Assembly: GCA_903900235.1 (NCBI GenBank)
Contig: CAIUMH010000038.1
Location: 1-64,000 of the forward strand
Length of the DNA: 64,000 bases
Source: an uncultured Actinomycetes bacterium
GTDB lineage: Bacteria; Actinomycetota; Acidimicrobiia; Acidimicrobiales; RAAP-2
Direction: 5' to 3'
Shown here: positions 48,702 to 50,331 of the stretch, in pieces
Layout of the letters: each line of letters opens with the position of its first letter
Position numbering within the stretch: position 1 is the stretch's first letter
Translations under genes and position numbers: made by a program
The notes under the pieces: model-generated
What the model saw: the letters and a program-made list of their open reading frames with translations, nothing else
Database searches by the model: none
What the model was told of the DNA's origin: nothing

Positions 48702-49547
48702 ATGACCTCTGCGGACCCCGCCCTCGCGCTCATCGATCTTGATCGCTACCCCGTTGATGACCCGACGAGCGAAGTGCTGGCCACGGTGATTGCCACGGGT
48801 CGAGCCCAGCTGGCCGAGTCGGGATATGCCGAGCTGCCGGCCTTCGTCACCCCCGAGGCCATCGAGGCCTTGGTTGCCGACGCGGCGGCGCACGCACCGC
48901 GGGCGCACCGATCCACCGGTCCGGGCACCGCCTATCTCGAGCTCCCTGACGAGGAGGCCTTCGCCGAGAATCACCCCCGCCGCCGGTGGATGCCCTATGA
49001 CGTCGGCGCAGTGGCCTACGACCTGATCGGCCTCGACTCGCCGCTGCGGGCGGTCTACGAGTCCGATGCCGTTCTCGGCCTCATCGAGGCGATCCTCGAC
49101 CGGGGCCAGATCTATCGCTACGCAGACCCCTTCGGGGCCCTCAACCTGGCGGTCATGGGTGAGGGCGACCAGCTGCAGTGGCACTTCGACCAGACCGACT
49201 TCGTGGTCTCGCTCGCGGTCCAGTCGGCCGCGGAAGGCGGGGCCTTCGAGGTGGTTCCCAAGGTGCGTGCCGACCATGACGAGCACTATGACATTGTCGA
49301 GCGGGTGCTTGACGGGGACGCCACCGGGATCGTGACCCTGCCGATGGTTGCCGGGACATTGCTCGTCTTCGAGGGTCGCCGCTCTCTGCATCGCGTCAGC
49401 CCCATCGCTGGGTCGGTGCTGCGCCACGTGGGCCTCCTCGGCTACGACACGGCGCCTGGGACCCAGAGCTCAGAGCTGCTCCGGGCTATCCGATACGGTC
49501 GGACGATGCCCCACGATGTCCCCCCGAACCATTGGCCGGCCGCATGA
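48702..49547 (+). CDS. Fe(II)/2-oxoglutarate-dependent oxygenase-like protein
   Basis: A 281-residue protein with the cupin-type metal triad of the 2OG oxygenase superfamily: 'QWHFDQTDFVVSLAV' gives His-x-Asp, 'RSLHRVSPIAG' the distal His, and 'RHVGLLGYD' a plausible 2OG-binding Arg. The N-terminal helical part resembles the ArpA/HalD-type group. Substrate is unknown. The ATG at 48702 is chosen over the upstream ORF-track start inside the divergent MFS gene. Its stop overlaps the fae start by 4 bp (ATGA), so the oxygenase and Fae are translationally coupled. Confidence 0.65.
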   Translation: MTSADPALALIDLDRYPVDDPTSEVLATVIATGRAQLAESGYAELPAFVTPEAIEALVADAAAHAPRAHRSTGPGTAYLELPDEEAFAENHPRRRWMPYDVGAVAYDLIGLDSPLRAVYESDAVLGLIEAILDRGQIYRYADPFGALNLAVMGEGDQLQWHFDQTDFVVSLAVQSAAEGGAFEVVPKVRADHDEHYDIVERVLDGDATGIVTLPMVAGTLLVFEGRRSLHRVSPIAGSVLRHVGLLGYDTAPGTQSSELLRAIRYGRTMPHDVPPNHWPAA

Positions 49548-50062
49548 TCGAGATCGGGGAGTCCTTCGTGGGCGAGGGCCCAGAGGCCGCGCACCTCAAC
49601 ACCATGCTCGGCGACGTGGAGGGTCCTGTCGGCCAGGCCTGGGCCACGGCCTTGGCGACGCCGCGCCAGGGCCATGCGGCCTTCGTGGTGGTGGCCCGAC
49701 CCAATGTGCCGGTCAAGCCGATGACCCTCTTTGTGAACAAGGCCACCATTGCGTCGGATGGCCACGGAGATCTCACCTGGGGAGCAGCGCAGCTGGGCGT
49801 GGCCTCGGGGGTGCTCGATGCCGTTGCCGACGGGACCATCTCGGCCGAGGCCGCGGACAGGAGCGTCTTGATCGCCGCCGTCTGGGTGGACCCGGCGGCG
49901 ACTGATGCCGACCTCGTCTACACCAACAACCGCCAAGCCACGGCCGAGGCCCTCCGTAACGGTTCGGCGCGCCTCCCGGCACTGGCCGATGTGCTGGCAG
50001 TGCGCGAGACGCCGATCAACGGCTACTACGTCCCCGCCTCGCTCCGACCCGACGAACCATGA
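49544..50062 (+). CDS. fae: Formaldehyde-activating enzyme (Fae) family protein
   Basis: A 172-residue Fae homologue. It has the family N-terminus 'IGESFVGEGPEAAHLN' with the conserved catalytic-region His, the central 'GHAAFVVVARPNVPVKPMTLFVNKATI' and 'WGAAQLGVASGVLDAVADGTI'. Fae joins formaldehyde to tetrahydromethanopterin in methylotrophs and archaea; Fae-like proteins also occur without that cofactor. No methanopterin-pathway genes are in this window. The ATG at 49544 overlaps the oxygenase stop, and the gene overlaps the DUF1543 gene by 4 bp. Confidence 0.8.
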   Translation: MIEIGESFVGEGPEAAHLNTMLGDVEGPVGQAWATALATPRQGHAAFVVVARPNVPVKPMTLFVNKATIASDGHGDLTWGAAQLGVASGVLDAVADGTISAEAADRSVLIAAVWVDPAATDADLVYTNNRQATAEALRNGSARLPALADVLAVRETPINGYYVPASLRPDEP

Positions 50063-50331
50063 GTCGGTTGTTCGCTGTCCTGCTTGGTGGCAGCGGTGGA
50101 CCCGGCCGTTTGGCTGAGGATCACGAGACCGTCTTCGTGGTGGCTGACGACACCGTGACCGCCAAAGCGCAGGCCAAGGCCAAGTGGAGCGGGTCGGGAC
50201 GACCCCATGTCGATGCCCTGATGGAGGTGGACGTGGTCGATGGCTATGCCATCACCGCCGTGCCGACCTCGGCCACCGGTGACTCCGAGCTGGTGGACTT
50301 CAACGACGTGCCGCACGACGAGGCAGGCTGA
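50059..50331 (+). CDS. DUF1543 domain protein
   Basis: A 90-residue protein resembling DUF1543: 'LFAVLLGGSGGPGRLAEDHETVFVVADD', then 'AKAKWSGSGRPHVDALMEVDVVDGYAI'. Function is unknown. It is the third gene of an operon with ATGA overlaps (2OG oxygenase, Fae, DUF1543) and ends 1 bp from the convergent peroxiredoxin stop. Confidence 0.7.
   Translation: MSRLFAVLLGGSGGPGRLAEDHETVFVVADDTVTAKAQAKAKWSGSGRPHVDALMEVDVVDGYAITAVPTSATGDSELVDFNDVPHDEAG

Follow-up and report, generated by a model that had tools for sequence, protein, structure and literature searches.

An oxygenase-Fae gene pair kept without the Fae cofactor pathway in Acidimicrobiia suggests a Fae branch independent of methanopterin

The locus

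The stretch of DNA analyzed here, hereafter the window, comprises 64 kb of a contig (CAIUMH010000038.1) from an uncultured member of the Acidimicrobiia, whose genome assembly is of 2.4 Mb, 96.6% complete and endowed with a single Fae copy. Three genes of the window lie on the plus strand and are joined by two 4-base ATGA overlaps, coding in this order for a predicted Fe(II)/2-oxoglutarate (2OG) oxygenase (OXY), a protein of the Fae family (FAE, belonging to a branch here called Fae-N) and a DUF1543 protein. An initial annotation had placed the three genes and their overlaps at these positions, and it is borne out by both the coordinates and the Pfam and NCBIfam assignments. The genes and the residues of interest are the following:

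48702-49547, plus strand: OXY, predicted Fe(II)/2OG oxygenase of the HalB/BesD/HalD fold group, 281 aa (PF23169; AlphaFold pLDDT 94.0; PDB fold matches)
49182-49190, plus strand: OXY iron ligands His161-Phe-Asp163 (HxD, oxygenase-type, carboxylate ligand retained; WHxD in 55/55 family rows)
49389-49391, plus strand: third OXY iron ligand His230, adjoining Arg231 (both invariant in a 22-sequence alignment; His230 in 54/55 rows of a wider set)
49422-49424, plus strand: OXY Arg241, presumed 2OG binder (invariant in the 22-sequence alignment)
49544-50062, plus strand: FAE, Fae-family protein of the predicted methanopterin-independent branch (Fae-N), 172 aa (PF08714; TIGR03126 over cut-off; 1y5y/1y60 match)
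49592-49600, plus strand: Fae His17-Leu-Asn19, catalytic His retained (corresponding to His22 of Methylobacterium extorquens Fae) and Asp24 replaced by Asn, from comparison with canonical Fae proteins
50059-50331, plus strand: DUF1543 protein, 90 aa, overlapping third gene outside the conserved module (PF07566)

OXY and FAE can be regarded as real genes, since tens of genomes share them, their catalytic residues do not vary, and both structural models are of high confidence. Between 45576 and 51551, the window also carries genes for RlmN, an SDR, an MFS transporter (divergent from OXY), a peroxiredoxin and a response regulator, and this order is syntenic in the window's family (f1). The arrangement looks like plain synteny within the family, with no conserved further partners of the pair.

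The third gene does not share in this conservation. DUF1543, which matches PF07566 over the cut-off (E 3e-11), had been proposed as the third member of a trio. In our class survey, an even draw of 296 genomes in which Fae was counted over the cut-off, it occurs in only 11 genomes, several of them without Fae, and in three (G052, G060 and G170) the two genes lie on different contigs. DUF1543 comes next after FAE, in the same order as in the window, in two congeners (L002, L004), and further downstream, beyond an intervening gene, in another relative (L013). The class scan, with so few genomes and mostly no linkage to Fae, rules it out as a module partner: DUF1543 is a genus-level passenger, incidental to the module.

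A predicted oxygenase of the halogenase fold group

OXY matches the Pfam family HalD (PF23169) over the curated cut-off (E 9e-12). The best PDB matches of its AlphaFold model (mean pLDDT 94.0, pTM 0.90) are HalB (7u6j, E 1.6e-14), a BesD hydroxylase homologue (7jsd), HalD (7u6h), HalA and BesD, with E values from 1.6e-14 to 1e-11 and identities of 13-18%. In other words, both the Pfam family and the fold are common to OXY, to BesD, HalB and HalD, and to 7jsd. Five residues (His161, Asp163, His230, Arg231 and Arg241) are invariant in the 22-sequence alignment, in which the HxD...H triad and the presumed 2OG-binding Arg, the mark of hydroxylase-type Fe/2OG oxygenases, are both present; in the wider OXY-family set, WHxD is found in 55 of 55 rows and His230 in 54 of them. 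The catalytic residues of the oxygenase put forward in the initial annotation are, in fact, intact.

The halogenases of the HalB/BesD/HalD group are devoid of the carboxylate ligand that hydroxylases have (PMC10187165). As this ligand is present in OXY (HFD) and Asp163 is invariant, a function as halogenase was discarded, and OXY is predicted to be an oxygenase, with a chemistry like that of 7jsd rather than that of BesD, HalB and HalD. Moreover, free amino acids are the substrates of the fold relatives, which makes a small zwitterionic compound a reasonable candidate for the substrate of OXY. No known demethylase was found among the best 50 PDB matches of OXY, the nearest solved proteins being amino-acid halogenases and hydroxylases; N-demethylation is put forward as a hypothesis.

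OXY homologues of 36-39% identity were also observed on Pantoea and Klebsiella plasmids (L105, L118), where the gene is divergent from a LysR-type gene and adjoins genes for a DUF2817/M14 metallopeptidase and an ABC-type substrate-binding protein.

A separate branch of the Fae family

The Fae protein of the window matches PF08714 (E 1.5e-49, 168.5 bits, above the curated cut-off) and NCBIfam TIGR03126 (139.6 bits against a cut-off of 118.05). Among PDB entries, its AlphaFold model (mean pLDDT 92.6) strongly matches only the M. extorquens Fae structures 1y5y and 1y60 (E 1.6e-17), with TM-scores of 0.83-0.87 by query length and 31-33% identity. Family, fold (TM about 0.85), catalytic His and conserved core are thus common to Fae-N and the H4MPT-dependent Fae of M. 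extorquens (EC 4.2.1.147). In particular, His22, the catalytic residue of the latter, is present in Fae-N as His17, and most of the other invariant Fae residues are likewise retained.

The two proteins differ in the residue beside this His. Seven of seven canonical Fae sequences, one of them encoded in an Azospirillum cluster together with mch, fhc and beta-RFAP synthase genes, have His-Ile-Asp, whereas the window protein has His-Leu-Asn. His-x-Asn is found in the relatives of Fae-N from the window's class, S. clavuligerus, other actinobacteria and Burkholderiales. Three copies in which the His is missing and a single His-x-Thr copy are the exceptions within the branch. In the Fae tree, whose bootstrap is not fully settled, the canonical sequences are set apart by a branch of 100/100 support and a length of 2.96. 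Judged by motif and phylogeny, what had been taken for an ordinary Fae belongs to a separate, well-separated branch of the family with an altered motif. One of its members, 60% identical to the window protein, is found in Streptomyces clavuligerus, a culturable host.

Some Fae homologues lack both the catalytic His (Ser or Arg instead) and the conserved Lys (Gln or Ala), namely those at L087:7643-8125, L086:7801-8286 and L091:7865-8326, all on the minus strand. They are second copies in G029 and G193 and the sole copy in G162, and are presumably non-catalytic or repurposed.

Co-inheritance of OXY and FAE

In the 296 genomes of the class survey, Fae is present in 38 and OXY in 48. The two occur together in 34 genomes, Fae alone in 4, OXY alone in 14 and neither in 244 (Fisher p = 5.8e-29, a value that ignores shared ancestry), and this pattern recurs in nine families. 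The genes are adjacent in 25 genomes, in 24 of which FAE follows OXY. In eight genomes they are unlinked, being on different contigs or 275 kb apart; a ninth (G069) has both of them at the ends of contigs. Within family f1, 7 of the 19 listed genomes have both genes and 12 have neither. The retention of both genes after unlinking and the both-or-neither distribution in f1 (19/19) suggest a shared pathway. An independent set of public genomes gave a comparable picture, with Fae adjoining OXY at 20 of 23 OXY loci (19 downstream, 1 divergent); the loci related to the window come mostly from MAGs whose names place them in Acidimicrobiia or elsewhere among the actinobacteria.

The tree of OXY unites the sampled genes of Fae-bearing genomes in one clade (SH-aLRT 97), which also includes two sequences without a neighboring Fae (L018, L025). 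The other family members in the tree fall outside, and distant OXY relatives have no Fae nearby or in the genome. Taken together, these data support OXY and FAE as a conserved functional pair outside any methylotrophy locus. Of the operon that had been proposed as a self-contained module, the pair stands, given its presence in 34 of the 38 Fae-bearing genomes and its adjacency in 25, while the trio with DUF1543 does not.

As for further partners, no betaine transporter or amine gene was recognized beside the pair in the window or its nearest relatives. Acyl-CoA dehydrogenase, SDR and citrate synthase genes in the surroundings of unlinked copies belong to common families and were given no weight. 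Where Fae is unlinked or a second copy, a family of about 390-410 aa without Pfam match (E <= 1e-5) lies directly after it, its members being 61-81% identical:

L075:6752-7978, minus strand: member of the Pfam-less family after Fae
L077:8113-9327, plus strand: member of the same family
L086:5895-7757, minus strand: member of the same family
L087:6443-7615, minus strand: member of the same family

In two other relatives, Fae is followed by an alkylsulfatase-like metallo-beta-lactamase protein (L013:7343-9259, L058:6791-8713). A search of the literature, covering subscription journals in part, returned nothing relevant on an acidimicrobial Fae or on a Fae associated with 2OG oxygenases or mandelate racemase.

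Absence of the H4MPT pathway

The profile search found Mch, beta-RFAP synthase and FTR over the cut-off in 0 of 41 Fae-bearing genomes each, with a single sub-cut-off match for FTR, and Mch was not found in 17 further Fae-bearing actinobacteria. Used as positive controls, genes of methanogens and of the bacterial Azospirillum H4MPT cluster do score over the cut-off. With three markers absent and both archaeal and bacterial controls scoring, a hidden H4MPT pathway is ruled out; it follows that Fae-N does not work with H4MPT from any known pathway in these organisms. Fae-N hence differs from the H4MPT-dependent Fae not only in motif and branch, but also in the lack of an H4MPT pathway in its genomes and in its partner, which is an oxygenase and not the mch or fhc genes. 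That the usual cofactor pathway of Fae was not visible had been remarked for the locus, and holds genome-wide.

A mycothiol-dependent formaldehyde dehydrogenase scores over the cut-off in 21 of 47 genomes, scattered among them, and is absent from the window's genome, which rules it out as an obligatory downstream enzyme. The two-gene module is confirmed as real and conserved, with a Fae that stands outside H4MPT. On the pair and on the lack of the cofactor pathway the initial annotation was correct, and on DUF1543 it was wrong; the demethylation that it suggested stays a hypothesis.

Gene contexts of related Fae and OXY proteins

Neighboring genes are named here at the superfamily level, the betaine-binding, GbcA and MttB matches being below curated cut-offs. 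The fae gene of S. clavuligerus shares an overlap with the end of an operon for a betaine-type ABC transporter, and HIBADH-like and SSADH-like genes come after it. A gene for an OsmF-like betaine-binding protein directly precedes fae in this species, in the streptomycete-type genome G681 and in G268, and lies nearby in G727; in G681, a choline-dehydrogenase-like gene also adjoins the Fae operon. In most streptomycete-type genomes, genes for an enolase-superfamily protein, ALDH, HIBADH and Fe-ADH come after Fae, and an SSADH gene lies not far away; the same order of Fae and these four genes, together with betaine ABC genes, is found in G268, which belongs to the window's class but has no OXY. 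These loci are as follows:

L137:1-18501, L138-L144, L106 and L088: Fae, enolase-superfamily, ALDH, HIBADH and Fe-ADH operon, with nearby SSADH and in some loci a betaine ABC transporter (from genomes of streptomycete type and from one genome of the window's class)

That the enolase-superfamily partner is a known betaine epimerase was not borne out, its best PDB matches being sugar-acid dehydratases and putative racemases.

Other contexts include genes for GABA permease, an agmatinase-like protein, SSADH and GABA transaminase beside Fae in family f66, aldo-keto reductase and SSADH genes in Burkholderiales, and class III-ADH-like genes flanking more distant actinobacterial Fae genes (L110-L112). 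On the side of the oxygenase, a distant OXY relative of Mesorhizobium lies between an MttB-like methyltransferase gene with an Ldh-type oxidoreductase gene and a Rieske oxygenase gene, whose best named match is GbcA. The theme that unites these contexts is amine or betaine uptake and oxidation, with dehydrogenases of the semialdehyde type. An oxygenase-Fae pair kept without the Fae cofactor pathway, with related fae genes in betaine and amine operons, points to a methanopterin-independent branch of Fae.

Proposed function and alternatives

Computation demonstrates the gene structure, the co-inheritance, the intact triad, the Fae fold, the lack of H4MPT genes and the separate Fae branch. Starting from these, we tentatively favor a model in which OXY oxidizes a small zwitterionic, probably N-methylated amine and the formaldehyde set free in this step is captured by Fae-N together with a non-H4MPT carrier; the substrate, the release of formaldehyde and the carrier are steps that we infer beyond the triad and the fold. 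Specifically, OXY would bind Fe(II) through the HxD...H triad and use O2 and 2OG to hydroxylate a small zwitterionic substrate, most likely at the N-methyl, or another N-alpha C-H, group of an amine or betaine-like compound. The resulting carbinolamine would collapse into the dealkylated amine and formaldehyde, which Fae-N would take up, speeding its condensation with the carrier. Tetrahydrofolate, which is present in nearly all bacteria, would be the first candidate for this carrier, and a thiol the second.

Partial analogies exist for both halves of the model. Rieske-type, GbcA-like betaine demethylation is an oxidative N-demethylation with release of formaldehyde, that is, the outcome proposed for OXY, a distant relative of which adjoins such a Rieske gene. 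OXY, however, is an Fe/2OG and not a Rieske protein, and no GbcA-like genes were recognized in the neighborhood of the window. On the Fae side, Fae2 and Fae3 of Methyloversatilis universalis FAM5 are distant Fae homologues, and Fae3 is a precedent for a Fae relative tied to amines: fae3 is induced almost tenfold on methylamine, and fae2 and fae3 single mutants have no growth defect (PMC5023235). In contrast to the genomes with Fae-N, the methylotroph hosts of these paralogues possess the H4MPT pathway. Gfa, for which an acceleration of formaldehyde capture by a non-H4MPT carrier has been proposed (PMC8879981), is likened to Fae-N by this role, being a different, glutathione-based protein.

The model draws on the co-occurrence of OXY and Fae, their joint retention when unlinked, the absence of H4MPT, the separate branch, the betaine neighbors and the class III-ADH-like flanks. 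Against it stand the lack of demethylases among the proteins closest to OXY in sequence or fold and the lack of recognized amine genes beside the window pair; the link of OXY to N-methyl compounds is indirect, through the neighborhoods of relatives. The sub-cut-off betaine-binding, GbcA and MttB matches and the missing mycothiol formaldehyde dehydrogenase weigh in the same direction, as do the enolase-superfamily, HIBADH, Fe-ADH, aldo-keto reductase and SSADH partners in Streptomyces and Burkholderiales, which by themselves need no formaldehyde.

These partners lead to the strongest rival, a possible though doubtful reading according to which Fae-N would no longer be a formaldehyde enzyme. It might instead act on a different carbonyl intermediate, through (de)hydration or imine chemistry, in the catabolism of quaternary or C4 amines (betaine, butyrobetaine- or GABA-like), with OXY as a C-H hydroxylase feeding the same intermediate, which elsewhere would be supplied by the enolase-superfamily, aldo-keto reductase or HIBADH enzymes. 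Its strength lies in the several Fae-N operons without an obvious formaldehyde source and in the changed residue beside the catalytic His, His-x-Asn being consistent with a changed ligand. It also agrees with the five-gene operons of most streptomycete-type loci (SSADH nearby) and of G268, with the association of Fae, aldo-keto reductase and SSADH in Burkholderiales, and with fold relatives of OXY that oxidize amino-acid C-H bonds. Yet Fae-N retains the catalytic His and most invariant Fae residues, betaine uptake and class III-ADH-like neighbors fit formaldehyde equally well, and no reaction can be named for the branch.

It is unlikely that Fae-N is a general scavenger or buffer of formaldehyde, paired with OXY by co-regulation while the latter has a separate oxidative role: eight or nine genomes with unlinked genes and the Fae of G268 and Streptomyces without an adjacent OXY would fit, but the unlinked genomes retain both genes, and f1 has both or neither throughout. 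Quite improbable is a biosynthetic role for OXY as hydroxylase of an amino acid, in the manner of the BesD/HalB systems, with Fae as an incidental neighbor; the nearest fold relatives of OXY are indeed lysine/ornithine halogenases and hydroxylases, but no biosynthetic enzymes were recognized around the pair in the annotated neighborhoods, and the co-inheritance with Fae is too strong for such a neighbor. Finally, the initial reading, in which the three genes with DUF1543 among them make up a single module of demethylation and detoxification, is hardly credible, the ATGA overlaps of the window and the order repeated in two congeners being outweighed by the rarity of DUF1543 and its occurrence in Fae-less genomes, which largely refute it.

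Returning to the demethylation model, its widest form would hold that a branch of Fae has left methanopterin in Acidimicrobiia, streptomycetes and Burkholderiales, handling formaldehyde from the catabolism of N-methylated amines with another carrier, and that its acidimicrobial members are coupled to an oxygenase that would be the first N-demethylase in the HalB/BesD fold group. As a whole, this seems to us rather unlikely.

Significance

The presence of Fae is commonly taken as a sign of methylotrophy and of formaldehyde oxidation linked to H4MPT. This annotation misleads, because a coherent branch of Fae is found in actinobacteria free of H4MPT, where it is inherited together with an oxygenase or sits in betaine and amine operons. 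Through the Fae-N branch, one can test directly for a new formaldehyde carrier system or, failing that, for a novel function of the Fae fold.
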